DNA of 64,000 nucleotides from assembly GCF_000195575.1 (NCBI RefSeq), contig NC_015391.1, positions 860,501-924,500 on the forward strand, read 5' to 3'. Position 1 is the stretch's first letter. Every line of letters begins with the position of its first letter. Below the pieces are notes generated by a model. It saw nothing but the letters and a program-made list of their open reading frames with translations, was not told the DNA's origin and did no database searches. Source of the stretch: Carnobacterium sp. 17-4. GTDB taxonomy: Bacteria > Bacillota > Bacilli > Lactobacillales > Carnobacteriaceae. Below are positions 3,498 to 64,000 of this stretch, one piece after another. Position numbers and translations under genes: made by a program.

Positions 3498-3539
3498 TTT
3501 GTATAAATCTTTTAATTAAAATTGTAAAGGAGAGATAAA

Positions 3540-6185
3540 ATGACTGATGAATTGAAAATGTCTACTAAATACCAACCAAATGAAGTAGAAGCTGGTCGTT
3601 ATGAAAAATGGGTAGAAAAAGGGCTATTTAAGCCAAGTGGAGATAAGACAAAAGAGGCTTATTCTGTCGTTATTCCCCCTCCAAACGTAACAGGGAAATT
3701 GCATTTAGGTCATGCCTGGGATACAACTTTACAAGATATTATTGTTAGACAAAAAAGAATGCAAGGCTTTGATACTCTATGGTTGCCAGGTATGGATCAT
3801 GCAGGAATTGCAACCCAAGCAAAAGTAGAAGCTAAATTAGCTGAAGATGGTATTTCACGCTACGATTTAGGACGTGAAAAGTTTATTGATACTGTATGGG
3901 ATTGGAAAGAAGAGTATGCCAGTGTGATTCGTGAGCAATGGGCAAAAGTGGGTATTTCAGTTGACTATAGCCGTGAACGTTTTACATTAGATGATGGATT
4001 ATCTGAAGCGGTTCGTAAAGTATTTGTAACGATGTATAATAAAAAACTGATTTACCGCGGAGAGTATATCATCAACTGGGATCCAAAAGCTAAAACGGCT
4101 TTATCAGATATCGAGGTTATTCACCAAGATGTTGAAGGTGCCTTTTATCATATGAGTTATCCGTTAACAGACGGCAGCGGAGTAGTTGAAATTGCGACAA
4201 CACGACCTGAGACGATGCTAGGGGACACAGCAATTGCGGTTCATCCAGACGATGAACGTTACCAACAATTAATTGGTAAGACAGTTCTGTTGCCGTTAAT
4301 GAATCGTGAAATTCCAATTGTAGCAGACGATTATGTTGAAATGGATTTTGGGACAGGTGTTGTGAAAATCACTCCTGCTCATGACCCCAATGACTTTGAA
4401 GTTGGGAAACGTCACAATTTGCCACAAATCAATGTAATGAATGATGATGGTTCAATGAATGAATTGGCTGGCAAGTATGAATCGATGGATCGTTTTGAAG
4501 CTCGTAAAGCCGTGGTAAAAGATCTAGAAGCTGAAGGTCGAATGATTAAAATTGAAAAAGTGGTTCACAGTGTTGGTCACTCAGAACGTACAGGAGTTGT
4601 AGTAGAACCAAGGTTATCTACGCAATGGTTTGTAAATATGGCACCACTAGCTAAAGAAGCAATCGAAAGCCAAGGAACAGAAGAGAAAGTTAATTTTGTG
4701 CCAGAGCGTTTCGAAAATACCTATATGCGTTGGATGGAAAATGTTCACGATTGGGTAATCTCACGCCAATTGTGGTGGGGTCACCGTATTCCTGCTTGGT
4801 ACCATAAAACAAGTGGTGAGTTGTATGTAGGAATGGAAGCACCTGAAGATAATGAAAACTGGGTACAAGATCCAGATGTTTTGGATACGTGGTTTAGTTC
4901 AGCTTTATGGCCGTTTTCTACAATGGGCTGGCCTGATGAAGATTCTGAAGATTTTAAACGTTATTTCCCTACCAATACTTTGGTAACAGGATACGACATT
5001 ATTTTCTTCTGGGTTAGCCGCATGATGTTCCAAAGTTTAGAATTTACTGGAAAACGACCATTCAATAACGTTTTGATTCATGGTCTTATCCGTGATACAG
5101 ATGGCCGCAAAATGAGTAAGTCACTAGGCAATGGAATCGATCCTATGGATGTTATTGAAAAGTATGGAGCGGATGCACTACGTTGGTTCTTGTCTAACGG
5201 TTCTGCTCCAGGGCAAGATGTTCGTTTTAGTTATGACAAAATGGATGCTGCATGGAACTTTATCAATAAGATATGGAATGCTAGCCGCTTTACATTGATG
5301 AATATGGAAAACTTTACTGTTGATCAAATTGATTTGACAGGTGAAAAAACGGTTGCTGACCGTTGGATCTTAACCAAATTAAATGAAACAGTTGAAAAAG
5401 TAACCGACTTATTCGAGCGTTTTGAATTTGGTGAAGCGGGTCGCCACTTGTATCACTTTATTTGGGATGATTTTTGTGACTGGTACATCGAAATGAGTAA
5501 GGAAGTATTATTTGGAGAAGATGAAAAAGCGAAACAAACGACTAGAAGTATTTTAGCTTATGTATTGGATCAAACGTTACGTCTATTGCATCCTATCATG
5601 CCTTTTGTTACAGAAGAAATATGGGAAAACATTCCTCACGAAGGGGAATCGTTAGTTGTAGCAGAATACCCAGTTGTTCATCCAGAACTTTCTGATGAAG
5701 CAGCAACCAAAGGGATGGATGTATTGATGGAATTGATTCGTTCGGTTCGTAATATTCGTTCTGAGGTAAATACACCGTTATCTAAAAAAATTGAGTTATT
5801 GATCAAAACAAACGATCAAACAATCGAACAATTCTTGAAGGATAATACTTCTTATATTGAACGCTTCTGTAACCCCGAAAGGTTGACAATCTCAAGTGAT
5901 GTAGAAGCTCCTGAAACAGCTATGTCAGCTGTAATCACAGGTGCTGAGATTTACTTGCCACTAGCTGGATTGATCAATTTAGAAGAAGAAATCGCTCGTT
6001 TAGAAAAAGAATTAGATAAATGGAGCAAAGAAGTGAAACGTGTAGAAGGAAAATTAGCGAATAAAAAATTCGTAGAAAATGCTCCTGATACAGTAGTTGA
6101 AGCTGAAAAAGCAAAACAAGGCGATTACCTTGAAAAACATGCTGCAGTAAATGAACGCATAAAAGTATTGAAAAATCAGCTTTAA
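3540..6185 (+). CDS. valS: Valyl-tRNA synthetase
   Basis: Class I synthetase charging tRNA-Val, 881 residues, the usual length. The HIGH-type motif is HLGH at 55-58 after PPPNVTGK, and KMSKS is at 524-528. The editing (CP1) domain lies between them ([17 protein letters not shown]), followed by the anticodon domain and the C-terminal coiled coil (about 810-881) that grips tRNA. AAGGAGAG precedes the ATG. Expression is set by the T-box leader directly upstream. Confidence 0.97.
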
Positions 6186-6203
6186 TCAGTAACCTATTGT
6201 AAA

Positions 6204-6250
6204 TAAAACGAGTAAAAACTAGGATCTCTCTTAGCTTTTTACTCGTTTTA
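6204..6250 (+). terminator. valS terminator
   Basis: A long hairpin of about 17 bp (TAAAACGAGTAAAAACT paired with its near-complement) ends in a short T-run. Confidence 0.8.
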
Positions 6251-6371
6251 TTGTTCTATTGAGAAAGAACTATAGTAAGGGATGGAATAAATAGCGATAT
6301 TTTAATGGTTGAAATGAACAGGGTAGTTTATAATTAACTAGGTATGGAATATAAATAAGTGGAGGTAAGTC

Positions 6372-7679
6372 ATGTTCACTACGTATGAAGAAGCATTGAA
6401 CTGGATTCATGCAACAAGGACTTTTGGTGAAAAACCAGGATTAAAACGAATGGAATGGATGTTAAGTCAAGTAAATCATCCAGAAAGAAAATTTAAATCG
6501 ATCCATATAGCAGGTACAAATGGCAAAGGCTCCACGCTGGCTTTCTTAAGGAACATGTTAGAAGCGAATGGACAAATAGTTGGGACGTTTACCTCACCAT
6601 ATATCGAAATGTTTAACGAACGTGTGAGCGTCAATGGAGATCCATTATCAGACGATGAAATTTTACGTTTAGCAAATACTGTTTATCCTCTTACAGAAGA
6701 ACTAAAGAAGACGGATCTAGGTGGACCGAGTGAATTTGAAATTATTACAATGATGATGCTGGTTTATTTTGGTGAAGGACATGCAGATGTAGTACTAATT
6801 GAAGTGGGGATAGGCGGGTTGTATGATTCGACAAATGTTATTAACCCAGTAGTCTCAGTTATTACGACAATAGGAATGGATCACATGAATTTACTTGGAG
6901 AGACATTGTCTGAGATTGCTTTGAATAAGGCAGGTATTATTAAGACAGCTATTCCCGTTGTAACCGGAAAAATTGGCAAAGAAGCTTTAGAAGTAATCGA
7001 ACAAAAAGCCGCTGATCAAGATAGCCTTATAATAAAATATAATAAAGATTTTTTTGTTACAAAATGGCAGACCCTTCCTACTTGGGGGGAACAATTTGTA
7101 TTTGAAGATGATTTTATGCGACTTAGTCCCATCCAAATAGAAATGTTGGGACGGCATCAAGTAGAAAATGCAGCAGTAGCAATTGAAACGTTAAGAGTTT
7201 ACAGTCATGAAACAGGTTTAGCCGTGAATCATGAAAAAATACGGAGTGGTCTGAAAAATACTTTTTGGCCTGGAAGAATGGAAAAAATAAACGATCAACC
7301 GTTGCTTGTTTTAGATGGCGCACACAACGAACACGCAATAAAGACATTAGTTGAAACGATTAAAAAAAACTTTGCTCAACAAGAAGTTTCTATCATTATG
7401 GCAGCTATGCGGGATAAAGACATTCAAGGGATGGTAGATCAAGTGCAATCTATACCGAATTGCCGTTTGATTCTGACGAGTTTCAACTATCCTAGAGCTG
7501 CTGGAATCGATGACTTAAACAAACTGATGCTAAAAAACGGGACAGTAGCCGAACATTGGCAAGAAGCATTGGTAGAGTCTCTTAATGAAATGGATGAAAA
7601 TGGAGTAGTGATTGTAACAGGATCTTTGTATTTTATTTCTGAAGTGAGAGAATACGTTAAAGCAGCAAATAAGGAATGA
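6372..7679 (+). CDS. folC: Folylpolyglutamate/dihydrofolate synthase
   Basis: FolC adds glutamates to folates (and may make dihydrofolate). The 435-residue Mur-ligase-like protein carries the P-loop GTNGKGS at 48-54, the family's SPYIEMFNERV stretch, and GVIVTGSLYFISEVR near the C-terminus. GGAGG precedes the ATG. The HAD gene starts 19 bases after its stop and probably shares its transcript. valS-folC order is common in Firmicutes. Confidence 0.95.
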   Translation: MFTTYEEALNWIHATRTFGEKPGLKRMEWMLSQVNHPERKFKSIHIAGTNGKGSTLAFLRNMLEANGQIVGTFTSPYIEMFNERVSVNGDPLSDDEILRLANTVYPLTEELKKTDLGGPSEFEIITMMMLVYFGEGHADVVLIEVGIGGLYDSTNVINPVVSVITTIGMDHMNLLGETLSEIALNKAGIIKTAIPVVTGKIGKEALEVIEQKAADQDSLIIKYNKDFFVTKWQTLPTWGEQFVFEDDFMRLSPIQIEMLGRHQVENAAVAIETLRVYSHETGLAVNHEKIRSGLKNTFWPGRMEKINDQPLLVLDGAHNEHAIKTLVETIKKNFAQQEVSIIMAAMRDKDIQGMVDQVQSIPNCRLILTSFNYPRAAGIDDLNKLMLKNGTVAEHWQEALVESLNEMDENGVVIVTGSLYFISEVREYVKAANKE

Positions 7680-7698
7680 AAATTTAGGGGGAAAAATC

Positions 7699-8358
7699 AT
7701 GACTAGAATTGAAGCAGTTATTTTTGATATGGATGGCCTGATGTTTGATACAGAAGTGCTTTATTATGAAGCGAATCGAACGATTGCCAAAAAAATCAAT
7801 TTGGCATATACGTGGGAGTTTCACGAAAAATACATTGGGATTTCCGATGAAGAATTCCACAAAGAACTTTATTTGACATTTGAAACAGAAGCGGCTGAGA
7901 CGCTTATCAACGAAGGCGGGCAGGCTTTACTAGAACATGTAGAAGTTAACGGATTGCGTAAGAAAAAAGGGTTGATTGAATTACTGGATTATTTAGAAAG
8001 TGAAAATATAAAGAAGATAGTTGCTTCCAGTAGTATCAAATCACTTGTTTCACTATTTTTAGAAAAAGAACAACTCACTCCATATTTTGATGCCATTATT
8101 GGTGGAGATGAAGTAACACGAGCAAAACCAAGTCCGGAAATTTATGAAAAAGCATGGTTAAAAGCACAGGTTCCAAAAGAACATACACTTGTTTTAGAGG
8201 ATTCGCTTAATGGGATTCGAGCAAGTTATGATGCTAACATTCCAGTTATTATGATACCGGATCTAATACTGCCAACGAGTGAAGCGAAAGAAAAAACACT
8301 TACGATTCTAGATGATTTAAATCAAGTGAAAACTTTTATTGAACAGCAAAATCAATAG
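7699..8358 (+). CDS. HAD-family phosphatase, beta-phosphoglucomutase-like
   Basis: The 219-residue protein has all the HAD motifs: nucleophile D10 and acid D12 in IFDMDGLMFDTE, motif II SSS near 110, Lys in RAKPSPEIY (motif III) and EDSLNGI (motif IV). A helical cap lies between motifs I and II, placing it in the beta-PGM-like subfamily of small-sugar or nucleotide phosphatases. The substrate is not determined. It follows folC closely. Confidence 0.85.
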   Translation: MTRIEAVIFDMDGLMFDTEVLYYEANRTIAKKINLAYTWEFHEKYIGISDEEFHKELYLTFETEAAETLINEGGQALLEHVEVNGLRKKKGLIELLDYLESENIKKIVASSSIKSLVSLFLEKEQLTPYFDAIIGGDEVTRAKPSPEIYEKAWLKAQVPKEHTLVLEDSLNGIRASYDANIPVIMIPDLILPTSEAKEKTLTILDDLNQVKTFIEQQNQ

Positions 8359-8422
8359 GAAAATAAAAAAATTGACTCCTTCTTTTTCGCGGATAGTACT
8401 AATGTGAAAAAGGAGGGTTTTT

Positions 8423-9115
8423 ATGACGATAAAAAGTATGAACTTAATAAAAGAAGTTCCCATTCAATCAAGACCTAGAGAAAGACTAGAGCAATATGGT
8501 GAGAAAGCTCTTGCCAACCATGAATTGCTTGCTATCTTGCTTAGAACAGGAACAAAAGGAACAAATGTTGTCACATTAGCTTTATCTATGCTCAACCAAT
8601 TTGAAGATCTCTATTATTTAAAGACAGCCTCTTGCCAAGAACTCATGACAGTTGCTGGGATTGGGAGAATTAAAGCAATTGAACTAAAAGCAGCAATTGA
8701 ATTAGGTACTCGTATTTCGCAAGCCTCTCAAATTAAAATTGGTCAAATTACTTCCAGTACGAAAGCAGGAGAAATGTTGCTGCTAGAAATGCGTGGACTG
8801 CAACAAGAGCACTTAGTCGTTCTTTACTTAAATACCAAAAATGAAATTATTAAAAAAGAGACTATTTTTATTGGAGGGCTGAATTCCAGTATCGCTCATC
8901 CTCGTGAGATTTTTAAAGGAGCAGTCAGGTATTCAGCTGCTCGCATGATCGTCGGCCACAATCACCCATCTGGTAACCCGGAACCTTCTGAAGCAGATAT
9001 CCAATTTACGCGAAGGATGTCAGAATGCGGAGAATTAATGGGAATCGATTTGCTGGATCACATTATTATAGGAGAACATGAATTTATTAGTTTAAAAGAA
9101 ATAGGGGTTTGTTAA
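8423..9115 (+). CDS. radC: DNA repair protein RadC (UPF0758)
   Basis: The 230-residue protein has an N-terminal helix-hairpin-helix region (VAGIGRIKAIELKAA) and a C-terminal JAB1/MPN metalloprotease-like fold with H179, H181, S189 and D192 in the HxHPSG...S..D motif. The JAMM residues are intact. The molecular role is unsettled despite the name. AAGGAGG precedes the ATG. In Firmicutes radC usually sits beside mreB, and here mreB is about 1.1 kb away, separated by the two cold-shock genes. Confidence 0.93.
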   Translation: MTIKSMNLIKEVPIQSRPRERLEQYGEKALANHELLAILLRTGTKGTNVVTLALSMLNQFEDLYYLKTASCQELMTVAGIGRIKAIELKAAIELGTRISQASQIKIGQITSSTKAGEMLLLEMRGLQQEHLVVLYLNTKNEIIKKETIFIGGLNSSIAHPREIFKGAVRYSAARMIVGHNHPSGNPEPSEADIQFTRRMSECGELMGIDLLDHIIIGEHEFISLKEIGVC

Positions 9116-9133
9116 AAGAAGTGTTTATAAAGG

Positions 9134-9162
9134 TTGCTTATTTAAAATGACCATGCTATACT
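9134..9162 (+). promoter_or_regulatory. Promoter of first cold-shock gene
   Basis: TTGCTT (9134-9139), a 17-bp spacer, TATACT (9157-9162). The start lies about 105 bases before the ATG, leaving a long leader. Confidence 0.75.
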
Positions 9163-9169
9163 AAGGTAG

Positions 9170-9273
9170 AGTTTTTGTTAGGTAGAAAATAGAATTGTTT
9201 CAGAACATTCCAATTCGCACCGCAAGCAAGAATATCACTATATGTGCTTAAGGGCACGAGGAGGAATTTCATT
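9170..9273 (+). promoter_or_regulatory. Cold-shock 5' leader, copy 1
   Basis: The untranslated leader begins GTTTTTGTTAGGTA (cold-box-like) and ends in the ribosome site GAGGAGG. Blocks of it recur before the second csp gene (9588-9689), notably TAGAATTGTTT, AGCAAGAATATCA and GGCACGAGGAGGAATTTC. In known csp genes such leaders act as temperature-responsive structures. Confidence 0.7.
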
Positions 9274-9474
9274 ATGGAACAAGGTACAGTAAAATGGTTT
9301 AACGCAGAAAAAGGTTTTGGATTTATCGAACGTGAAGGAGCAGACGATGTATTCGTACATTTCTCAGCTATCCAAAGCGAAGGATTCAAATCTTTAGAAG
9401 AAGGACAAGCAGTAACTTTCGACGTTGAAGAAGGAAACCGTGGACCTCAAGCAGCAAACGTAAACAAAGCTTAA
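9274..9474 (+). CDS. Cold-shock protein, copy 1
   Basis: A 66-residue single CSD protein (OB-fold RNA chaperone) with RNP1 KGFGFIER and RNP2 VFVHFS. The start is the ATG at 9274, 8 bases after GAGGAGG, giving [14 protein letters not shown], the normal family N-terminus. It differs from copy 2 by one residue (Ser versus Gly in SAIQxEGF). It has its own promoter and terminator. Confidence 0.95.
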
Positions 9475-9493
9475 TTTAAAATTAAAATTGTTT

Positions 9494-9526
9494 AAGGAGT
9501 TAGTCTTAGGACTAACTCCTTTTTTG
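9494..9526 (+). terminator. Terminator after csp copy 1
   Basis: Perfect 10-bp stem GGAGTTAGTC/GACTAACTCC, TTAG loop, T6. Confidence 0.92.
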
Positions 9527-9548
9527 TATAAAAATACTAGCGTTTCTC

Positions 9549-9577
9549 TTGAATTTCTAATAAATGAATGCTACAAT
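9549..9577 (+). promoter_or_regulatory. Promoter of second cold-shock gene
   Basis: TTGAAT (9549-9554), a 17-bp spacer, TACAAT (9572-9577), the same distance from its leader as in copy 1. Confidence 0.75.
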
Positions 9578-9587
9578 TACTGTAATG

Positions 9588-9689
9588 TTTTTGTTAGGTA
9601 ACACTTAGAATTGTTTTAATACAGTCTGATTCGTACCGTTAGCAAGAATATCAATATATGTGCTATAAGGCACGAGGAGGAATTTCATT
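9588..9689 (+). promoter_or_regulatory. Cold-shock 5' leader, copy 2
   Basis: It is aligned almost end to end with the copy 1 leader. The first 14 bases and the last block before the ATG are the same, the middle has diverged, and the hairpin-like TGTGCT..GGCACGA element is kept. Confidence 0.7.
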
Positions 9690-9890
9690 ATGGAACAAGG
9701 TACAGTAAAATGGTTTAACGCAGAAAAAGGTTTTGGATTTATCGAACGTGAAGGAGCAGATGATGTATTCGTACATTTCTCAGCTATCCAAGGCGAAGGA
9801 TTTAAATCTTTAGAAGAAGGACAAGCAGTAACTTTCGACGTTGAAGAAGGAAACCGTGGACCTCAAGCAGCAAACGTAAACAAAGCGTAA
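9690..9890 (+). CDS. Cold-shock protein, copy 2
   Basis: A 66-residue single CSD protein with intact RNP1 and RNP2, differing from copy 1 at a single residue. The DNA identity is also very high, so this is a recent or gene-converted tandem duplication including control regions. It probably binds single-stranded RNA and relieves structure at low temperature. Confidence 0.95.
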
Positions 9891-9910
9891 GCATAAAATT
9901 TAAAATTTTA

Positions 9911-9945
9911 AGAGCCTAGTGATTTTTCACTAGGCTCTTTTTTTT
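9911..9945 (+). terminator. Terminator after csp copy 2
   Basis: Perfect 12-bp stem AGAGCCTAGTGA/TCACTAGGCTCT followed by eight T. Confidence 0.93.
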
Positions 9946-10257
9946 ATGGAATAAAACCTCTAAGTACAAGGATGTGTTTCTAAAAAGAACAGTAGTCGTT
10001 TTTCAAAGGACTATTTCATTTTGTTTACTTATATATGGAATTGCTTAAATTTGTGTTAAAATATAAAAAATACTGATGTCATAAGTGGAAAAATACAGTA
10101 TGATGGTTTCGGTTAGAGCATTCTATTCTGTTTTTTGCTATACTGTTTAAGTGTCTACCTTTCAGTATTAAATAAAAGAGGTACAATTGCAATCAATCTG
10201 AAAATGAAAAGAACTATAAATATTAAAGATCAGGTAGACTTGAGAGGATGAAATTAT
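9946..10257 (+). promoter_or_regulatory. mreB upstream region with candidate promoter
   Basis: No coding potential is seen in these 312 bases. An extended -10 (TGCTATACT, core 10139-10144) without a clear -35 is the best promoter candidate; a second AT-rich candidate lies near 10053. GAGAGGATG before 10258 is the mreB ribosome site. Confidence 0.4.
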
Positions 10258-11271
10258 TTGTTTAGATTTGGAAATAAAGATATAGGAATTGATTTAGGTA
10301 CTGCAAACACAAATGTATTTGTAGCTGGAAAAGGGATTGTCTTAAGAGAACCTTCAGTAGTTGCAAAAGATACTGTAACAGGAGAAATTGTTGCAGTTGG
10401 AGAAGATGCAAGAAATATGATTGGGAGAACACCAGGCACAATTATTGCTATTCGTCCTATGAAGAATGGTGTAATCGCGGATTACGATACGACAGCAGCT
10501 ATGATGAAGTATTACATCGAAAAAGCAATTGGAAAATCAACATCTAAACCATTTGTCATGATTTGTGTGCCAAGTGGGGTAACAGAAGTTGAGAAAAGAG
10601 CCGTTGTTGATGCTACCAGAATGGCAGGAGCAAAAGATGCTTTCATTATTGAAGAACCATTTGCAGCAGCAATCGGAGCCGGTTTGCCCGTAATGGATCC
10701 TACAGGAAGTATGGTAGTGGATATTGGTGGAGGAACCACAGATGTAGCTACAATCGCATTAGGCGGAATCGTTAGCAGCCGTTCTATTCGCTTGGCTGGA
10801 GATCGCATGGATGATGTTATTATTCACTATGTACGCAAAAAATTCAATTTGCTTATTGGTGAACGTACAGCTGAACAAATCAAAATTCAAATTGGTTGTG
10901 CTTCTGTTGAAAAAGCATCAGAATACGGTGTTATGGACATTAGAGGCCGTGATTTGTTAACAGGACTGCCACAAACGATTGAAATTTCAGCTGTTGATAT
11001 TGCTGAAGCTATTCAAGAAGTCGTTGAAGGCATCATTGTTGCTGTTAGAGAAACGCTTGAAGAAACATCTCCTGAAATTTCAGCGGATGTCATTGATCAT
11101 GGAATTGTTTTAACTGGTGGTGGAGCCTTATTGAAAAATATTGGTGATGTTATTGCAGAAGAAACAGATGTTCCAGTTTTTGTGGCAAATGAACCACTTG
11201 ATTGTGTTGCACTTGGTACAGGAGAGTCACTAAAACACATTGATATCTATAAAAAAAGAGCAAATAGATAA
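10258..11271 (+). CDS. mreB: Rod-shape protein MreB (bacterial actin)
   Basis: ATP-binding actin homologue that guides lateral cell-wall synthesis at the membrane. The 337-residue protein has [13 protein letters not shown] (phosphate 1), the [10 protein letters not shown] phosphate 2 loop and a GGGALLKN adenosine motif. The start is TTG (protein [10 protein letters not shown]), supported by the upstream GAGAGGATG and by the family's normal N-terminus. It is followed by a terminator before mreC, so it is separable from mreCD. Confidence 0.96.
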
Positions 11272-54276: not shown

Positions 54277-54349
54277 TTAATAGATAAATTCCAGTTTATT
54301 TATATTGAGGGGATGGATCAGTGGATTAATTGCTGAAGCATTCTACTCT

Positions 54350-54420
54350 GGGGTCTTGGTATAATGGGATTACGACTGGCTGGCAGCCAGTTAATACGGG
54401 TTCAATTCCCGTAGACTCCA
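54350..54420 (+). tRNA. tRNA-Ala (GGC)
   Basis: A 71-base cloverleaf. Acceptor GGGGTCT/AGACTCC includes a G3-U70 pair, the alanine identity mark. The D-stem is 3 bp (GTA/TAC). The anticodon stem ACTGG/CCAGT holds loop CTGGCAG with anticodon GGC at 54382-54384. A 4-base variable loop and T-arm ACGGG-TTCAATT-CCCGT follow. Discriminator A at 54420; CCA is not encoded. It is compact for an alanine tRNA. The adjacent integrase suggests its 3' end is the attachment site. Confidence 0.85.
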
Positions 54421-54438
54421 TTACATAATTTTTAATAA

Positions 54439-54523: not shown

Positions 54524-55672
54524 TTAAAAATTGACATATTTTGCAAATTTATCAGCCGTATTTTCTTTAGCCTTTTCTGTTACATGAGCATAGATATTCA
54601 TAGTAGTTTGGATATTTGAATGACCTAAACGATCCTGGACTTCTTTTACACTTGCACCAGCTTCAAAAAGAAGGGAACAATGAGTGTGGCGGAAACCATG
54701 TGGCGTGATCCGCTTCAATTCGTAAAGGTTTACCAGGCGGTCAAGATATTTTCCAACTTTAGGTGGCTGCATAACTGTATTTTTAGTGCTGGGAAAAACT
54801 AATTGAGTAGGATTAAGTGTATTGAAACCTAATTTAAAATAGGTTTCTTTTTGCGTTTTCTTCCAAGATTTAAGAATTTTCATTGTCTGAGGATCCATTG
54901 AGATAGAACGGACAGACGTTTTTGTTTTAGGTGTTTGTATGATTAGAACGTTATCTAGGCCAAATGTAACAGTTTTATTAATTTTAATGGTATTATCCGT
55001 AAAATTAATATCACGCCATTGTAGAGCCAATATTTCTCCTTTACGTGCACCAGTGAACGCTAAAGTTCTGAACAGAGCTAGTTGTAAAGGTTTGTTCTCA
55101 CGTTTCAAGTGATCGAAGAAAAGAGTTAATTCTTCTTTATTGTAAAAATTTAAAACTTTTTCTTCTTCAACATCCACTTTTCTAATAGGCATACTAACCT
55201 TTTTAAAAGGATTGATTTCAACTGCACTGATAGTAATAGCGTAATCAAATATACGTGATGCATAGTTGCTGATAGCTTTGTACTTTTGCAGACGTTTGTA
55301 CCAGTCATTCAAAGCTGCCTGACAAAAGACCACAGTTATTTTGTCCATGTACAAGTCACCGAATATAGGCAAGATATGGTTGTTGAATAATTCTAATGTT
55401 TTATTTAATGTACTTTCCTTAACTGTATTCTTGTATTGAACAATCCACAGCTCATAGACGTCCTTAAATTTGCTTGTGCTGGACTTTTTAAAGCCATTCA
55501 TCTCTATATCTAGTTTTAATCTAGAAAGAGCTAGAGTGGCTTCTTTTTTTGTTTTAAAGCCTTGTCTAGTTGTCCGTTTCTTTTTACCGGTCATAGAATC
55601 CGTTCCAAGATATGCATTAAATTTATAAGCTGTCTTACCGTCTTTTGTTTTATATTTATTGATTGTTGTCAT
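54524..55672 (-). CDS. int: Tyrosine-type site-specific integrase
   Basis: The 382-residue phage integrase has an N-terminal arm-binding domain (about 1-60), SAM-like core-binding domain (about 65-165) and catalytic domain with R210 (FTGARKGEI), H325-x-x-R328 (PHGFRH), H351 and nucleophile Y361. All catalytic residues are intact. It ends 104 bases from tRNA-Ala, consistent with integration there. AAGGAG precedes the ATG. Confidence 0.95.
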   Translation of the reverse strand: MTTINKYKTKDGKTAYKFNAYLGTDSMTGKKKRTTRQGFKTKKEATLALSRLKLDIEMNGFKKSSTSKFKDVYELWIVQYKNTVKESTLNKTLELFNNHILPIFGDLYMDKITVVFCQAALNDWYKRLQKYKAISNYASRIFDYAITISAVEINPFKKVSMPIRKVDVEEEKVLNFYNKEELTLFFDHLKRENKPLQLALFRTLAFTGARKGEILALQWRDINFTDNTIKINKTVTFGLDNVLIIQTPKTKTSVRSISMDPQTMKILKSWKKTQKETYFKLGFNTLNPTQLVFPSTKNTVMQPPKVGKYLDRLVNLYELKRITPHGFRHTHCSLLFEAGASVKEVQDRLGHSNIQTTMNIYAHVTEKAKENTADKFAKYVNF

Positions 55673-55719: not shown

Positions 55720-56490
55720 TTAAATGTCTAACTCATTAATTATTACTTCTAAATTATCATTACCTTCAAACATATCAGGAACTACATAAATATAGCTCTT
55801 ATCAAATTTTGTTTCGAATTCATAAACAGGGTTACTTTTTCGTCCTAGTAAAGAAAATTCAAGATTAAATATACCTTGTTTGTTAGTTTGTATTGAGTCG
55901 AACTTTTTATTACTATATGAACGTTTATAAACATTAAATGAATTAGCAATTAAACTGTTGATTATTTCGTAAGCAACTTCAATTAAGCTTTTTGAAGAAG
56001 ATAAGGTTTTAGTAATTTTATCTGGATTAAATTCAATACCTTTCTCTCTAAAAAACAAATTATTATCATCAGAATAGTTTAAATGACAAGCAACATATGA
56101 ATTTAAAGTTTCTCCCACATAGCTAACGGCTAAATGAAATGGACAATAGTACTTTTTATCCTCTGATACATCTACCAAAACAAAATTACCATAATAATTT
56201 TTAAGTAATCCTGAAGGCAAAATATCTACCTCATATTCATAAGTATCATTTTGTTTCTCTATGTCAATTTCTATAAACAATTGCTGGTAGCTAGTTGTGT
56301 ATTCAATAATATCCGTTAAATCAATATCTAGGAATTCAATCAAAGTATCTAAAGTATTGAATTGAATTCCTTTACTATCATTATTTACTAGCGATGTTAT
56401 TGATTGTCTTGATATACCCGTATCGTTTGATAATTTATTTATACTAATCTCTCTATTATCTAATATTGATTTCAAATTACATCTAATCAC
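55720..56490 (-). CDS. CI-like XRE repressor with unknown C-domain
   Basis: The 256-residue protein has an N-terminal XRE helix-turn-helix (about 1-65, NKLSNDTGISRQSITSLVNN) and a C-terminal domain of about 180 residues with no S24 peptidase Ser/Lys or Ala-Gly cleavage site. It is divergent from a Cro-like gene with operators between them, so it is probably the lysogeny repressor. Without the peptidase, induction is likely not by RecA-stimulated self-cleavage (inference). Its HTH and the Cro HTH are clearly alike (shared KGIQF core). Confidence 0.8.
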   Translation of the reverse strand: MIRCNLKSILDNREISINKLSNDTGISRQSITSLVNNDSKGIQFNTLDTLIEFLDIDLTDIIEYTTSYQQLFIEIDIEKQNDTYEYEVDILPSGLLKNYYGNFVLVDVSEDKKYYCPFHLAVSYVGETLNSYVACHLNYSDDNNLFFREKGIEFNPDKITKTLSSSKSLIEVAYEIINSLIANSFNVYKRSYSNKKFDSIQTNKQGIFNLEFSLLGRKSNPVYEFETKFDKSYIYVVPDMFEGNDNLEVIINELDI

Positions 56491-56646: not shown

Positions 56647-56865
56647 ATGGAAAATAACTTTTCAAGGTTAGTTGGAGAACGACTTTTGACAATTAGTGAA
56701 ATTCATGTTGCTACCGGAATAAGTAGAAATCAATTAACTGCTCTGTATTACAGAAGAACTAAGGGGATTCAATTTGAGACAGTTAAGAAGTTGTGTGATT
56801 TTTTGGAAATTCCAATGAGTGAGTTAATCGAATATCAACCAGAAATTAAAGGTGGTGAGAAATAA
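56647..56865 (+). CDS. Cro-like XRE regulator
   Basis: The 72-residue protein is a single XRE helix-turn-helix (SEIHVATGISRNQLTALYY). It is divergent from the CI-like gene and shares sequence with that gene's DNA-binding domain. AAGGAGGAG precedes the ATG. It overlaps the next gene by one base. Confidence 0.8.
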   Translation: MENNFSRLVGERLLTISEIHVATGISRNQLTALYYRRTKGIQFETVKKLCDFLEIPMSELIEYQPEIKGGEK

Positions 56866-57134
56866 TGGCAAACTCAATATTCAATGACCAAGCACAACAA
56901 GAATTAAAAGAAGATTTCATAAAAATAGTGATGGAGACTGCAGCTCAATTGGTTTTAGACAAAACAAATAAACGTTGGTTAAGGAAAAAAGATGTTTTAG
57001 AATACATCCATATTAGTGGTCCAACCTTAGACACCTGGGTACGTCAAGGAGGATTGAAATTATCAATTATTGGCGGAGTGATCCTATTTGATAAGAGAGA
57101 GATAGATGCTTTCGTTTTAAAATATCAACAATAA
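56865..57134 (+). CDS. Excisionase-like helix-turn-helix protein
   Basis: The 89-residue protein has an HTH_17/MerR-like domain in its second half (WLRKKDVLEYIHISGPTLDTWVRQGGLKL). Such proteins act as excisionases or recombination directionality factors. Its position after cro fits. Overlap TAATG with the previous gene. Confidence 0.72.
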   Translation: MANSIFNDQAQQELKEDFIKIVMETAAQLVLDKTNKRWLRKKDVLEYIHISGPTLDTWVRQGGLKLSIIGGVILFDKREIDAFVLKYQQ

Positions 57135-58052: not shown

Positions 58053-58811
58053 ATGGAAGGCTGGATAAAGCTTCATAGAAAATTATTAGATAGTCCTATA
58101 TTCGAAAATGAAAAGCTGCTAAAAGTTTTTATGTATTGTCTGCTTAAATCCAGTCACCAAGATAGAGAAGCAGTGGTTGGGTTACAGACTGTAGATATAA
58201 AAAAAGGACAATTTATTTTTGGGAGAAAGAAAGCAGCTCAGCAGTTAAACATGAAAGAAAGCACCGTTTGGAAGCATATCAAATTCTTAGAAAAAATAGA
58301 TTCAATTTCTTTAAAGAGTAACAACAAATTTACTGTTGTATCTGTTGTCGGGTGGGCGATTTACCAAGGAGATATAACAACAAAGGAACAACAGAGTAAC
58401 AACAAAGGAACAACAGAAGAACAACAGAGTAACACAGACAAGAATGTAAAGAATGTTGAGAATGTTAAAAATGTAAAGAATAAAGATATAGTCGGGCAAG
58501 AATCACCCGACAATGTGCCTTATAAGGAAATTGTTGATTATCTCAATCTAAAGGCAGGAACTAACTTCCGGCCATCAGCTTCAAAAACTAAAACACTTAT
58601 CAAAGCAAGAATAAATGAAAGCTACTCAATTGATGATTTTAAAAAAGTTATTGATATAAAAAGTGATGAGTGGCTAAAAAATAAAGACATGGTGAGGTAT
58701 TTACGTCCAGAAACTCTGTTCGGAACTAAATTTGAAAGTTATTTAAATCAAAAACAAGTCTATAAGGATACCAATGAACGGGCTACTAGTGAGTATGATA
58801 ATTTCTTTTAG
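58053..58811 (+). CDS. Phage replisome organizer/initiator
   Basis: The 252-residue protein has an N-terminal winged helix (about 1-110, MEGWIKLHRKLLDSPIF), a low-complexity Asn/Gln/Lys linker (about 108-150) and a conserved phage C-terminal domain (about 155-235, VPYKEIVDYLNLKAG; RYLRPETLFGTKFESYLN). This is the usual phage initiator that recruits the DnaC-type loader encoded next. The linker DNA carries tandem repeats that may be the origin. Confidence 0.85.
   Translation: MEGWIKLHRKLLDSPIFENEKLLKVFMYCLLKSSHQDREAVVGLQTVDIKKGQFIFGRKKAAQQLNMKESTVWKHIKFLEKIDSISLKSNNKFTVVSVVGWAIYQGDITTKEQQSNNKGTTEEQQSNTDKNVKNVENVKNVKNKDIVGQESPDNVPYKEIVDYLNLKAGTNFRPSASKTKTLIKARINESYSIDDFKKVIDIKSDEWLKNKDMVRYLRPETLFGTKFESYLNQKQVYKDTNERATSEYDNFF
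58376..58430 (+). repeat. Tandem 22-base repeats within the replisome organizer gene
   Basis: Two adjacent 22-base copies (differing only in the last two bases) start at 58376 and 58398, followed by an 11-base partial copy to 58430. A second set of shorter AAGAATGT-type repeats lies at 58441-58482. It encodes the low-complexity linker. Candidate iterons of the replication origin. Confidence 0.75.
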
Positions 58812-58823
58812 GAGGGAAGTTAA

Positions 58824-59666
58824 ATGGAAAGTACTTCTAAGGCAATGCAACTCACATTGACAAAATTAACTTATATTGTCGAAACTCCTTGTCCTGAATG
58901 TCGCGGTGATATGAGAGCTTGGAGGGAGAAAGAAGGAGATCCTCCGCGTTGTGCTACAGTTTGCTTGGCTTGTGGTTATAGGTCTTTACAAAAGAAAGAA
59001 GCCATCACAACTAAAAAGTTATTTGAGGAAAGCATGAAAACTAAAGCGATGAATTATTTAAATTACGGATCAATCATTACAAATAAAAAGTTACTCGAAT
59101 TCAGATTAGACCAGTATAAAGAAATCGATTTAGAAACCATTAACGCTAAACAAGTTGCTATGAGTGCTTTAGATAAATTTAAAAACGGTGAAGAAGTACA
59201 CGTAATATTCAGCGGATCAACTGGAACAGGAAAGTCGAGTTTATCAGTCGGGATTTTACAAGAAGCGTTAGTTCAATCAAATTATGATAAAAAATGTCTT
59301 TTCATTAATTATCGTGAACTTTTAGAACAACTTAAATTTGCTATGAATGATGCCGAGGTAAGAAAGAAAATTACAGGAACCGTTATGAAAGAAATAAAAC
59401 TAGCTGACTTGATTGTCCTGGATGATATAGGTGCAGAGTTAGGGACCATTAAAGATGAGGCAAGAGGCAGCGTTTATAACCTAGATACATTGACAGCAAT
59501 CACTGAGGCGAGGGAAAACAAGGCTACTATATTCAATACAAACTTAACGTCAGTTCAAATTAAAGAAGCCTATGGAGAAAGAATCCTTTCCAGAATGATG
59601 AATAATTCTACCGGTTTAATGTTTAGGTTTAAAAACACTAGCGATAAGCGTATTGCAGGAATTTAA
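58824..59666 (+). CDS. DnaC/DnaI-type helicase loader
   Basis: The 280-residue AAA+ protein has a zinc-finger-like N-terminus (C23, C26, C47, C50, with C43 also nearby), Walker A GSTGTGKSS at 131-139, Walker B LIVLDDIGAE, sensor FNTNLT and arginine finger GERILSRM. It loads the host replicative helicase at the phage origin. AGGAGGGAAG precedes the ATG. Confidence 0.9.
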   Translation: MESTSKAMQLTLTKLTYIVETPCPECRGDMRAWREKEGDPPRCATVCLACGYRSLQKKEAITTKKLFEESMKTKAMNYLNYGSIITNKKLLEFRLDQYKEIDLETINAKQVAMSALDKFKNGEEVHVIFSGSTGTGKSSLSVGILQEALVQSNYDKKCLFINYRELLEQLKFAMNDAEVRKKITGTVMKEIKLADLIVLDDIGAELGTIKDEARGSVYNLDTLTAITEARENKATIFNTNLTSVQIKEAYGERILSRMMNNSTGLMFRFKNTSDKRIAGI

Positions 59667-59931: not shown

Positions 59932-60462
59932 ATGGAATTAGGAATATTTGAAAAACAAGAGATGCATAAGTATTTCGTGTTAGATGAAAAAATTAAACAA
60001 ATTTATGAACGCTTAGATTACAGAAGAGAAAGTTTTTACTCTCAAAATATGTTTTTACATACTGAATACCCTTCACAAAAGGATATTGATGCTAAAAACA
60101 ATTCAGATTTAAAAGTTAGAGGTTTTAATATTGAATACAACGTTATTGAATACATTGATATTGAGCGAGCTACTTTAAAAGTAATTGAAATGCTAAAGGA
60201 TAAGCAGCGTTACTTAAACGACTATCTAAAAGAGCTTAAATCACAAGAGAGAGAATATTTATTAACCAGGTACTCTTTACAAGGAGTACAAGGAAACACG
60301 ACACAAACGGACATAAACTTATATGCAGAAATTTTAGAAATAAATGAAGCTATCAGCTATAAATATGGTTATCCTCCGGATGAAGAAAATAAGTTTATCA
60401 TATCCGACCAAAGAAATTTTTTAGATGATTTTAAGGCAATAGCTGAAATGTTAAAGGTGTGA
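59932..60462 (+). CDS. Phage protein, possible late regulator A
   Basis: The 176-residue helical protein. Residues about 85-130 (LKELKSQEREYLLTRYSL) resemble the region just before the sigma-like helix-turn-helix of ArpU/DUF1492-type phage proteins, but the expected helix-turn-helix that should follow is not clear. First of four consecutive small proteins with similar layout. GAAGGGGTG precedes the ATG. Confidence 0.55.
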   Translation: MELGIFEKQEMHKYFVLDEKIKQIYERLDYRRESFYSQNMFLHTEYPSQKDIDAKNNSDLKVRGFNIEYNVIEYIDIERATLKVIEMLKDKQRYLNDYLKELKSQEREYLLTRYSLQGVQGNTTQTDINLYAEILEINEAISYKYGYPPDEENKFIISDQRNFLDDFKAIAEMLKV

Positions 60463-60468
60463 ATACGA

Positions 60469-60870
60469 ATGAATGACAGCAATCGAGGGATGCAGTTGTT
60501 AAATTTTTACTTACGAAAATGGAAGTATTTTGACGTTAACATTGCTTATTTATCAGATATTGAAAAGATTCAAATGAAGATTCTTTATGCTAGCTTGAAA
60601 AACTTAAATGAAGACGAGATAAAATTTTTGTCTGAGAGGTACAGGTTTACTGAGTTAAAAAAGATAACTGCTCAAGAGGCTGCTTCATTAAGAGCTGTTT
60701 CACTATACAAGTACAAAGAAAAAGAGAATGCAATCGGAATTAAGTTAATTCCATATTTTTTAGAAAATGAAAAAAAGCTTAAAGAAGAACTAAATGAAGC
60801 AGTAAGAATTGAAGCCAAAAGAAGAAGAAAGAATAGATTTAAATCTAATTTTAGGAGTGGAGATTGTTGA
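60469..60870 (+). CDS. ArpU-like phage late transcription regulator B
   Basis: The 133-residue protein has LKNLNEDEIKFLSERYRF then a helix-turn-helix-like segment (KKITAQEAASLRAVSLYKYKEKE), the pattern of ArpU-type regulators, and a very basic C-terminus (EAKRRRKNRFK). Overlaps the next gene by 7 bases. Confidence 0.6.
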   Translation: MNDSNRGMQLLNFYLRKWKYFDVNIAYLSDIEKIQMKILYASLKNLNEDEIKFLSERYRFTELKKITAQEAASLRAVSLYKYKEKENAIGIKLIPYFLENEKKLKEELNEAVRIEAKRRRKNRFKSNFRSGDC

Positions 60871-61331
60871 TTGAATTTATTGATTACCAGATAACAAATA
60901 TTGAAGCATCTTACTTAACTCTCAAAAAAAATTATTTAACTGAAGAATTAAAACTTTTAAATAATGAAAAAAAAACAGATGAAGATCTACTCCAATTAAA
61001 AAAACAACATTTAAACTTAATTTTTGACTGGGTTGATGAACTCGCAGATACGGATAGCCAATTGTTAAAACATTATTATTTTGATGGAATGATATTAGAA
61101 AATATAGCTTCACTTTTGAGCATTAATCATGGAGTAGTCGCTAAAAAACATCCTTCCATTATGAAAAGATTGAACAATGATATTTTGTTAAATAAATTTC
61201 CTTATAAAAAAACACCTCTTTATAGTGAGTATTTAATCACTAAAGAACAAGAAGAAGAACAGGGTGCACTAGAAAAACAAAGGGAATACAACAGAGAATA
61301 TAAAAGATCTAAACAAATAAAAAAATATTAA
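60864..61331 (+). CDS. Sigma-region-4-like phage regulator C
   Basis: The 155-residue protein has an N-terminal coiled coil (about 5-60), then a sigma-70 region 4-like unit (TDSQLLKHYYFDGMILENIASLLSINHG..) and a long polar C-terminal tail rich in Glu, Gln, Arg and Tyr. TTG start with AGGAG 7 bases upstream. Similar to late regulators before cos/terminase in Lactobacillales phages. Confidence 0.62.
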   Translation: MLIEFIDYQITNIEASYLTLKKNYLTEELKLLNNEKKTDEDLLQLKKQHLNLIFDWVDELADTDSQLLKHYYFDGMILENIASLLSINHGVVAKKHPSIMKRLNNDILLNKFPYKKTPLYSEYLITKEQEEEQGALEKQREYNREYKRSKQIKKY

Positions 61332-61350
61332 AAATGGAGTGTGATATTCA

Positions 61351-61710
61351 TTGCATGAGTGGGTTAAAGATTATCAGCGCATTACAAATGAAATAGACGT
61401 ACTTGATTATCATATAAAGCAAGGTATTAACATCTCTACAGACTGTGCTAAACAAGCCATTGTTGATGAATTAAACCTGATGCTTAATGAAACTAATAAA
61501 ACATTAATAAAAAAAGAAGACCAGCTTCTGGCACTCAAAGAAATATCTACCATGTTTACAGATATAGATCATGAAGTTTTTGTTAGGAAACACATAAAAA
61601 ATCAAACAACAAAAGTCATATCTCATGACTTAGGAATTTCAAAAAGTCATATCGACAAGATTAATACTGCAAACCTTAATACACTAGAATTTTATTCAGA
61701 ATTCAAATGA
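61351..61710 (+). CDS. Sigma-region-4-like phage regulator D
   Basis: The 119-residue protein has a coiled-coil N-terminus and a clear sigma region 4-like end (FTDIDHEVFVRKHIKNQTTKVI, then DLGISKSHIDKI). TTG start, GGAG 11 bases upstream. Last gene before the noncoding island. Confidence 0.68.
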   Translation: MHEWVKDYQRITNEIDVLDYHIKQGINISTDCAKQAIVDELNLMLNETNKTLIKKEDQLLALKEISTMFTDIDHEVFVRKHIKNQTTKVISHDLGISKSHIDKINTANLNTLEFYSEFK

Positions 61711-62279
61711 GTGGTTGATTGAAAACTTTACAAATTTGAATTTTAAATCACCATTTATAAGGGGGGAATGCCAAACTAGTTTTATTAACCAGATGAAAGG
61801 TGGCGAGATAAGTTCAGTGATGATTAATACACAAATATATATTATCTTTCTAAAACAGAATTAAAAAGATGTTTTGAATAAAGATAAAAAAGAGTTGGAT
61901 CGTTAAAGTTTTGGATAGGCCCCCCCTACCAAATTTTTTTTATTTTTATTTCGGGGGATAGGTTAGGGGGAGGCACGGCCGTCGCTGGACAAAAAAATAA
62001 AAAAAGAAAGGGGGGTGTAAAAATAAAAAGTGGAAATAATTTCAAAAAGCTAATATAGCAGTGTTTTAAAACAATTTATAAAATTTCTAATAAAAGCAAA
62101 TATTAATTTAATGCTATATGAATAGCCACCGATCAACGTTTATGAGTGTTTACTGTATCAATTATAATAAACGCTAAAAACAGGCTGTTTTTTATCAAAA
62201 ATAAAATAAATATATCGGGTTTGAAATATTGGTTTATATGATTAATCAACCCGTTATTTTAATAAGTGAGGTGATTAAA
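61711..62279. other. Noncoding island with C/G runs; cos-like
   Basis: No reading frame with a ribosome site spans these 570 bases. Centre: seven C at 61920-61926, five G at 61953-61957, five G at 61966-61970, a GC-rich GGCACGGCCGTCGCTGG patch (61972-61988) and six G at 62010-62015, all in very AT-rich sequence. The C-run block GGCCCCCCCTACC can pair with GGTTAGGGGGAGGC downstream. Position after late regulators is where cos sites lie in related phages. Confidence 0.5.
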
Positions 62280-62702
62280 ATGAAAACTGAAACAGATAAA
62301 ATAATTGAGGGTTCCTATAGGAGTATAGACAGGATCTGGAAAAAGCATTACGTTCGACCTATGAAACGACAATTAAATGAACATGAATTGATTCATTCTT
62401 TTGATAAAGGCGTTAGGAAATATCAGAGGTTAAGAAATTCACTCCTAGTAAATGATCTGTTGAGAGAGAATCCAGACTTTAAACAATATGTTGAGCTTGT
62501 TGCAGCTGTTATCAATACTAGAATACAAGCTATGACAATGATTAAGCAAAACAAGTTATCAGATCACATAATCCATAGTTTAAATGAAGTCACTAAAATA
62601 GTTGAACTAGGGAATAGCTTAGTAAGTGAGTCTTTAGACTGGGCATATAAAGGCGGATATAAGTCCGATTTGTTAGATAAGTATAGAAAAAAATATTTAT
62701 AA
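62280..62702 (+). CDS. Phage protein before tape measure, unknown
   Basis: The 140-residue basic helical protein, no recognised domain. ATG at 62280 is chosen because GAGGTG lies 6 bases upstream; a TTG 51 bases earlier lacks a site. It stands where tail assembly chaperones would, but lacks a slippery sequence and a second overlapping frame. Function unknown. Confidence 0.6.
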   Translation: MKTETDKIIEGSYRSIDRIWKKHYVRPMKRQLNEHELIHSFDKGVRKYQRLRNSLLVNDLLRENPDFKQYVELVAAVINTRIQAMTMIKQNKLSDHIIHSLNEVTKIVELGNSLVSESLDWAYKGGYKSDLLDKYRKKYL

Positions 62703-62718
62703 TAGGAGGTGAAACTAT

Positions 62719-64000
62719 TTGGCGAAAACTGAAGAAAGTAATGTAGTACTGAATTTCAAAATGGATGGGCAAGTGCAATATGCTCAGACCATAAAAGAAA
62801 TAAACGGAGTTATGAATACTGCTGGTAAAGAATACAACAACCATGTGTCAGCAATGAAAAAAGATGCTACTCAAACCGAGAAACTTCAAGCTGCTAAAGG
62901 TAAACTTGAAATTCAATTAGAGGGTGCTGAAAAGCGTTCTAAGATGTTGAGAGAAGAATACGAGCGGTCCGTAAAAGAAACCGGTGAGTATTCAAATGAA
63001 TCAAAAAAACTATATGATCAGTTGCTTCAGTCTGAAACAGGTGAAAACAAGTTACGAAGTGCATTAGATGCTACCAACGACTCTTTGAAGGAACAAGGAA
63101 ACCTATCTATTGAAGCGGCTGATAAGTTAGCTAAGTTAGAAGAATCAGGCGAGAAAGTCAAGAACGTAGGTAAAGGAATGACCGTTGGTGTTACAGCTCC
63201 AATATTGGCCATTGGTGCAGTTGCAATAAAATCCTTTGGTGAAGTTGATGAAGCGATGGATACCATTATCATGAAGACGGGAGCCACTGGGAATGCAGCG
63301 GACAGCTTGACTCAATCTCTTGAAAACGTCGCTGGAAATACTCATTTAGAAATACAAACAGTTGGTGAAGCAATAGGAGAAATGAATACTCAATTTGGAT
63401 TTATGGACGAGAAGCTAGAAGAATCAACTGACTATATGCTTAAGTTTGCTGAAATTAATAATACTGATGTATCTGAATCTGCTATTAATTCCCGTAAAGT
63501 AATTGAAGCATATGAAATGTCCTATGATGATTTAAACAAAGTATTAGATGCTACTACTAAAGTATCGCAAAATACCGGTCAGTCTGTTGACATGTTGTTC
63601 GATAAAGCAATAACAGGTGCACCACAAATTAAAGCACTAGGTCTTTCTTTTGAAGATGGCGTTGAAATGATTGGTAAATTTGAACAAAGCGGACTTGATT
63701 CAGGGAAAATGTTAGGTTTTATGTCCAAGGCTTCAGTACTATTTGCTAAAGATGGAAAGACTTTAACCCAGGGTCTAGGTGATCTACAAGAAAACATGAA
63801 GAATGCCACCAGTGATACAGAGGCGCTTGCAATGGCCAGTGAAGTATTTGGTTCTAGAGGTGGAGATGCTATGTTTGATGCCATTAAAAGAGGAACTCTT
63901 GATTTAACAGAGCTTGGAGAAATTGCCAAAAACAGTGTTGGAGCAGTTGGTAACACATTTGATGAAACTAGGGATCCTATTGATCAAGCTCAAGAAGCTA
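62719..64000 (+). CDS. Phage tail tape-measure protein (partial)
   Basis: At least 427 residues; the frame stays open to the window end. TTG start, with a perfect AGGAGGT 8 bases upstream. An N-terminal coiled coil (about 1-145) is followed by a TP901-type PhageMin_Tail domain (GMTVGVTAPILAIGAVAIK onward), with FDKAITGAPQIKALGLSFED and EVFGSRGGDAMFDAIK as family stretches. It sets siphophage tail length. Full size is unknown. Confidence 0.9.
   Translation, partial: MAKTEESNVVLNFKMDGQVQYAQTIKEINGVMNTAGKEYNNHVSAMKKDATQTEKLQAAKGKLEIQLEGAEKRSKMLREEYERSVKETGEYSNESKKLYDQLLQSETGENKLRSALDATNDSLKEQGNLSIEAADKLAKLEESGEKVKNVGKGMTVGVTAPILAIGAVAIKSFGEVDEAMDTIIMKTGATGNAADSLTQSLENVAGNTHLEIQTVGEAIGEMNTQFGFMDEKLEESTDYMLKFAEINNTDVSESAINSRKVIEAYEMSYDDLNKVLDATTKVSQNTGQSVDMLFDKAITGAPQIKALGLSFEDGVEMIGKFEQSGLDSGKMLGFMSKASVLFAKDGKTLTQGLGDLQENMKNATSDTEALAMASEVFGSRGGDAMFDAIKRGTLDLTELGEIAKNSVGAVGNTFDETRDPIDQAQEA

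Follow-up and report, generated by a model that had tools for sequence, protein, structure and literature searches.

An integrated satellite-like element of Carnobacterium sp. 17-4 with a putative phage cos site and its own intact tape-measure gene

We suggest that a complete mobile element of 16.8 kb, located between two 14-bp repeats of a tRNA-Ala end in Carnobacterium sp. 17-4, is probably a PICI-like satellite of the cos type, packaged by a helper phage, and that its own tape-measure protein (TMP) most likely replaces the TMP of the helper in the tails of its particles. The window, i.e. the whole analyzed stretch of 64,000 nucleotides (G000:C2:860501-924500), ends inside the TMP gene, and the contig was extended by 45.5 kb of contiguous sequence. 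The following features were detected (window coordinates).

54349..54421, + strand: tRNA-Ala (GGC), the integration site (ARAGORN)
54524..55672, - strand: tyrosine integrase, 382 aa (Pfam PF00589, 8e-28)
55720..56490, - strand: Cro/C1-type repressor, divergent from the rightward genes (PF13443, 4.9e-14)
56647..57134, + strand: 72-aa Cro-like gene and 89-aa HTH_17 gene (similarity; Pfam)
58053..59666, + strand: replication module (PHROGs)
59932..60870, + strand: satellite hallmark pair, gene1 (176 aa) and gene2 (133 aa) (homologues in other satellites)
60864..61710, + strand: 155-aa gene and 119-aa late-regulator-like gene (PHROGs, Pfam)
61909..62020, + strand: putative cos block (96.5% identity over 113 columns to L012:2025-2136)
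62280..62702, + strand: 140-aa gene between cos and the TMP gene (157 codons from an upstream TTG)
62719..65034 (in the window to 64000), + strand: TMP, 771 aa, TTG start (phrog_991)
downstream of the TMP gene: 126-aa excisionase-like gene (phrog_904, 5.5e-28)

The left repeat, CCCGTAGACTCCAT, is the last 14 bases of the tRNA-Ala (54408-54421). The first-pass annotation proposed following the sequence past 64000 to a second tRNA-Ala repeat, and this copy of CCCGTAGACTCCAT was found beyond the window at 71193-71206 (L002:19193-19206), closing the element. Only small genes lie between the TMP end (65034) and a chromosomal gene, presumably pyruvate-oxidase-like, from about 71.7 kb. The joined flanks matched without interruption (query positions 1-380 of 415, 87% identity) in two of the five other genomes of the genus (G010 and G013), which is an empty integration site; only the left part matched in G009, G011, and G012, and the own genome gave two separate pieces (six genomes examined in all). 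An own integrase with defined att ends (repeats and empty site) is a PICI feature, and so is the divergent regulatory region, with int and the repressor on the - strand and the Cro-like, HTH_17, DnaD, and DnaC genes on the + strand.

The 72-aa gene resembles repressors of related elements, and the 89-aa gene, which we take to be AlpA/Xis-like, matched HTH_17 at 1.4e-5 and 25.7 bits, below the Pfam cut-off of 27. The replication module consists of a DnaD-like replication-initiation gene (252 aa; phrog_428 1.1e-46, phrog_2514 1.1e-36) and a DnaC-like helicase loader (280 aa; phrog_50 1.1e-52), which stand in place of the primase of the pri-rep genes of PICIs. Primase-like genes were detected among the relatives discussed below, by PHROG in L098 and by ORF similarity, judged by eye, in L093 and L099. 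The window copies of gene1 and gene2 had no PHROG match. The 119-aa gene, which we assume to be ArpU-like, matched the transcriptional regulator family phrog_36 (1.6e-5), and the sole match of the 155-aa gene was HxlR, below threshold. Past the excisionase-like gene, the right part carries small genes, mostly without an assigned role, and two adjacent cargo genes (L002:16059-17142, window scale 68059-69142) matching phrog_1281 (8.9e-16) and phrog_29631 (2.4e-28). A PADLOC scan of 10 element proteins for defence genes gave one match, which we do not believe (E 0.0099).

The late-regulator-like gene stops at 61710 and is followed by noncoding DNA with the cos-like block, the 140-codon gene (62280-62702), and the TMP gene, in agreement with the earlier observation that head genes are missing between the late regulator/cos region and the tape measure. 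The possibility that they lie downstream in unusual order was not borne out: tblastn up to the right repeat with 26 proteins of four reference phages (TerS, TerL, portal, protease, MCP, MTP, TAC, Dit, Tal, and amidase, some named by position) produced six chance-level matches at E <= 1, none convincing (best E 0.046). Terminase, portal, capsid, tail tube, chaperone, Dit, and lysis genes were not detected across the whole 16.8-kb element, and tube, Dit, Tal, fibre, holin, and endolysin were not recognised; for the tail chaperone, tblastn and HMM were both negative, and a chaperone of another sequence family would escape both. The gene set of a complete siphophage (terminase, portal, capsid, tube, baseplate) is thus absent at this level of detection, as are the own capsid and packaging genes typical of cf-PICIs, and the element shares with PICIs the lack of a complete head, tail, or lysis module. 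From the earlier suggestion of a satellite carrying its own tail, the satellite part agrees with the findings; of the tail, a full-length tape measure is the one gene recognised.

The cos block resembles a phage region most closely in an IMG/VR prophage (L012; 35-kb contig, 21.7 kb compared), where the matching block sits between an HNH-like gene and the small-terminase gene. The pre-terminase layout was similar by eye in 13 of 14 other phage loci (L094 is the exception; some of the loci are near-copies of each other), and a similar cos-like layout precedes the TMP gene in the satellite L143. Its position and layout suggest that 61909..62020 is a phage cos, the feature that marks cos-type satellites. 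The presence of a cos-like site and replication genes, noted at first pass, agrees with the match to the pre-terminase block of L012 and with the DnaD/DnaC-like PHROG matches. L012 and the element have two DNA blocks in common at E <= 1e-5, the cos block and 62703-64988.

The second block (81% identity over 2289 columns) is gene-sized, from 16 nt before the start of the TMP gene to 46 nt before its end. The TMP matched phrog_991 at E 2.3e-155 over residues 1-759 of 771, and the closest TMP seen is that of L012 (84% aa identity, 771 v 771 aa). The two proteins are 98-100% identical in the first 80 residues and again at about residues 641-720; residues of about 401-520 form the longest strongly divergent stretch (58-65%), and identity is 65% at residues 721-760 and 36% in the last 11. 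In phage 80alpha, the N-termini of the TMP contact the tail completion protein at the neck, its C-termini contact Tal at the baseplate, and a pilot role has been proposed for it; the neck structure comes from SaPI1 virions, which are built of helper proteins (PMC11661146). By analogy with 80alpha, the neck-side end of the element TMP would fit the L012 phage type best.

A role of the TMP as a tail shortener was rejected for the element on the equal lengths (771 v 771 aa), and likewise for the close analogues (793 and 792 v 790; 765 v 767; 782 v 765). Since TMP length equals that of the nearest phage TMP, a change of length is unlikely as the benefit. Six further satellite TMPs, which belong to other families (L183, L184, L187, L191, L199, L209), covered phage sequences from 46-65% up to 100% by tblastn, in the matches listed rather than against full phage TMP lengths.

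The 140-aa gene had no match in PHROGs or Pfam, no relatives in phages or in 17 other genomes of the family, and none in pattern-based scans of viral and GTDB contigs, which reach close relatives only. Nothing marks it as a tail chaperone, as it does not align to the ctekg1 chaperone and these searches gave no relatives, though a chaperone of another sequence family is possible. The AlphaFold model of its product is poor (pLDDT 59, all helices); the product may be a TMP partner. Promoter-like sites showed no excess in 61650-62800 (5, shuffle mean 6.0), and the 140-aa gene contains one terminator-like site, against 0.3 on average in shuffles.

In the search for a cognate helper we found no second TMP in the own genome, no second cos copy (matches besides itself were at chance, best E 0.024), no TerL_ATPase domain PF03354, the sole terminase family sought, and no L012-type TerL. 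Other phrog_991-detectable TMPs are present in G010-G013, of which the place G012:C2:1719453 was examined further.

The first-pass annotation also suggested a search for the same junction in other genomes, and the layout of a TMP gene without head genes does recur elsewhere. An assembly error at 61.7-62.7 kb, the other refuting condition of the first pass, is possible in principle, but has this recurrence against it. A GTDB contig scan with the TMP alignment A1 gave 10 loci; seven are ordinary prophages, and three had no marker protein in the sequence available, namely L093 (Enterococcus diestrammenae), L098 (Enterococcus sp. 8G7_MSG3316), and L099 (E. casseliflavus; the sequence stops 28 bases after the TMP gene). 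We assume that the order holding Enterococcus is Lactobacillales. Among the 95 loci L007-L101, five lacked any marker protein: these three and two uninformative ones, L011, whose record consists of the gene only, and L057, where the contig breaks off at the TMP. A TMP was detected at E <= 1e-60 in 31 of 395 genomes of the order, own genome included, and 20 regions from 19 of the 31 genomes were inspected. Several head or tail genes were present in 15 of the 20; the TMP stood alone in three, L141 (= L093), L148 (= L098), and L147; L143 (G162) had the TMP and an MCP-like gene; and L156 is a remnant with TAC and terminase fragments and a 404-aa TMP. In G318, also of the window's order, a region is identical to an E. 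diestrammenae locus over 400 TMP bases.

Positions 9194-9244 of L098 align to phage phiEG37K (LC625742) where its two ends are joined (93% identity, 54 columns, a gap of 3 bases at the junction), and are on this ground probably the cos of L098. Here cos is followed by a 123-aa gene, a 124-aa gene, and the TMP gene, which is 74.8% identical to the phiEG37K TMP in DNA; in L098/L099 both cos, through the joined ends, and the TMP are nearest to phiEG37K. The 123-aa gene matched phrog_1066 (function not assigned, 4.2e-31) and, more weakly, the small-terminase families phrog_2343 (1.6e-5) and phrog_5110 (2.8e-4), so L098 may hold a small terminase. The cos-like region of L093 resembles that of L098 and its TMP resembles that of L092, suggesting that cos and TMP need not match one helper. 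The reverse complement of L143 carries, at 7081-10974, a capsid-protein homologue (phrog_10, 4e-39), a cos-like block, and then the TMP gene; this cos reaches no more than 60-68% identity to the phage cos blocks with which it was aligned. L147 (G222; reverse complement 9393-10502) has a backbone similar to L098 and appears as a decaying copy, with the N-terminal half of the TMP lost and the C-terminal 369 aa left.

The gene1/gene2 pair marks a wider family. By blastp, gene1 matched in L143, L093, L098, and L147, and gene2 in the same elements except L098 (none at E <= 0.01). The gene1 HMM found 35 places in 30 of the 395 genomes; five are the known elements and the other 30 fall in 29 regions, all of which were examined, giving 34 regions. 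In the 29 regions gene1 is an open frame in 28 (L208 is the exception) and gene2 was found in 24. Neither gene was found in 106 phage loci, some of which are short and at least three of which are second copies. HMMs built from 25 related phages, which other types of head and tail proteins may escape, detected TerS, TerL, portal, MTP, TAC, and Dit in none of the 29 regions and none of the known elements (compare the 123-aa gene of L098). Long ORFs downstream of gene1, compared to PHROGs, revealed TMPs in L183, L184, L187, L188, L191, L193, L199, and L209, so that 13 of the 34 gene1 regions have a TMP, one of them truncated (L147); L099, outside the gene1 sample, is a further TMP-carrying element. 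In 11 of the 13, gene2 is followed by the TMP at a distance of 0.5 to 3.5 kb; of the remaining two, L093 has the pair downstream of the TMP and L209 has no detected gene2. Inspection of ORFs of at least 280 aa on the gene1 strand, from 8 kb before to 9 kb after gene1 and partly by eye from the first residues, showed no terminase- or portal-like ORF in L183, L184, L187, L191, L193, L199, and L209 (the L188 and L193 sequences end soon after the TMP).

The TMP does not appear to be essential for the family, because 21 of the 34 gene1 regions showed none. It is also not the sole virion gene kept, since MCP-like genes are present in four regions (L143, L191, L200, L205) and protease-like genes in two; in the latter, L196 (11410-12003) and L204 (5481), the capsid-protease-like gene was the only structural gene found by the HMMs used.

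A sister element (L183) is located in G012, of the same genus, at the same tRNA-Ala site with the same 14-bp repeat 13.3 kb apart, and its backbone is similar, with 77% identity for the integrase and 22-81% for other genes. In the same slot it carries a TMP of 701 aa with phrog_58 as the best match and phrog_991 weaker, and blastp between the two TMPs gave no match at E <= 1e-3. An abortive-infection-like gene follows the sister TMP (5769-6782; phrog_2158, 3.8e-40). Compared to PHROGs, the window TMP and eight further ones matched best to families 991, 58 (in three cases), 1068, 1686, 1204, 5493, and 1535; these families overlap, and seven is not a count of origins.

The dN/dS of the TMP was 0.098 for the window against L012, 0.157 for L098 against L009, 0.086 for L143 against L144 (dS 2.89), 0.078 and 0.063 for two phage pairs, and saturated for L093 against L092; several of these comparisons have a large dS, from 1.04 to 2.89 with one saturated, and their ratios are rough. 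The two satellites L098 and L099 gave 0.113 with the divergent C-terminal part included, and this part looks recombined. A TMP tree of 28 rows, from which L147 was omitted, requires 4 changes to account for its five satellite rows, and branches with good support force every one of them. The satellite TMPs do not cluster, since 122 of 500 shuffles of the labels gave a count no higher.

The life cycle that we propose would start with excision by the own integrase and replication by the DnaD/DnaC-like proteins. Concatemers would be cut at cos by the helper terminase and packaged into helper heads, with head, tail tube, baseplate, and lysis supplied by the helper. The satellite TMP would most likely replace the helper TMP in the tails that join satellite heads, forming a chimeric tail, and would act as a pilot during DNA entry. 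We infer the replacement from the precedent of PLE11 of Vibrio cholerae, whose own TMP is built into tails of ICP1 components (PMC12987554). Candidate benefits are escape from TMP-directed inhibition of tails, passage past an entry block of a resident prophage, or the favouring of satellite particles.

Regulator, cos, and TMP follow each other as in an ordinary siphophage from which the central part has been removed, and a prophage in decay, its head module and most of its tail module gone, could have kept a TMP by chance; L156 demonstrates that such remnants exist, and the TMP of L147 is truncated. The head-module deletion proposed at first pass has this resemblance in its favour, but the TMP of the element is intact with dN/dS of about 0.1, the ends are clean, with att repeats and empty sites, and the arrangement recurs: TMPs were found in 13 of 34 gene1 regions and TerL, portal, MTP, TAC, or Dit in none by HMM, gene1 and gene2 are absent from the 106 phage loci, and in the sister element this slot is occupied by a TMP from a different family. 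We therefore regard a chance remnant as improbable. A tailocin or tail-only particle, another of the early suggestions, would explain a tail gene without head genes, but the complete tail and lysis genes that it calls for were not recognised, and a cos site and replication genes would be useless to it, making this reading hardly credible.

It is conceivable, though rather unlikely, that the TMP is made as interference, titrating chaperone or baseplate factors of the helper or producing abortive tails, with the satellite particles using the helper TMP. Satellites commonly disturb helper assembly, and tail-directed defences are described, such as Tai (PMC11364771) and Rta (PMC12987554). A full-length, length-matched TMP with low dN/dS, however, looks like a working part and not a fragment, the PLE11 TMP was found in the virion, and transfer fell by 96% in PLE1, 99% in PLE4, and about 99.9% in PLE11 when tmp was lost (PMC12987554). 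These observations favour incorporation of the satellite TMP into tails as the preferred reading.

According to the 2026 paper on PLE11 (PMC12987554), every well characterised satellite with double-stranded DNA takes over the tails of phages, and PLEs are the first known to add parts of their own. PLEs are similar to the element as TMP-encoding satellites that otherwise use virion parts of the helper; their TMP was shown to be in the virion and to be needed for efficient transfer. PLE11 also has a putative tail chaperone and baseplate hub, and PLEs carry a tail chaperone, while only the TMP was recognised in the element. The ICP1 tail is contractile and the element is of siphophage type; the PLE11 TMP is 20% identical to that of its helper and its tails are about 10 nm shorter, in contrast to 84% identity and equal length for the element and its nearest phage TMP (PMC12987554).

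Cos-type SaPIs such as SaPIbov5 likewise combine a phage cos with a satellite copy of one helper structural gene, the capsid homologue Ccm there and a tape measure here (PMC8569155); capsid-like genes are present in the related satellites L143, L191, L200, and L205, but none was recognised in the element. EfCIV583, a PICI of Enterococcus faecalis, is similarly small and integrated, with integrase, regulators, and replication genes and no capsid; it is 12 kb and was shown to be helper-dependent, and Table 1 of PMC3675006 lists no tail gene for it, while the element carries a TMP. Some cf-PICIs have putative tmp genes (Extended Data Fig. 10 of PMC12987554), but cf-PICIs encode capsid and packaging genes, and no capsid, terminase, or portal was recognised in the element. 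Our full-text literature search, with thin coverage of subscription literature, noticed no report on TMP-carrying satellites of Gram-positive bacteria, and among the papers examined PMC12987554 alone describes satellite TMPs, though some of the cf-PICIs in that figure may be Gram-positive.

The comparative evidence presented here comes from another phylum than that of the PLE11 host and indicates repeated recruitment of a TMP by satellites of Enterococcus and others of the window's order, with low dN/dS and, in the cases compared, a length near that of the nearest phage TMP. The TMP allows putative helper types to be named, with cos adding to this in two lineages, and there are now more systems in which to test what a satellite gains from a private TMP (tail immunity, entry block, particle choice). 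There is a somewhat less than even chance, in our estimate, that the widespread gene1/gene2-marked satellites of Lactobacillales treat the TMP as an exchangeable cassette, the satellite ruler and pilot deciding which tails are used and how DNA enters; TMPs of different families, from different phage lineages, would then have been dropped into the satellite late region. One gene1 region, L191 (G031), carries at 3493-8427 a TMP of 792 aa and, as a separate gene, a major-head-like one (phrog_840, 9.6e-93).
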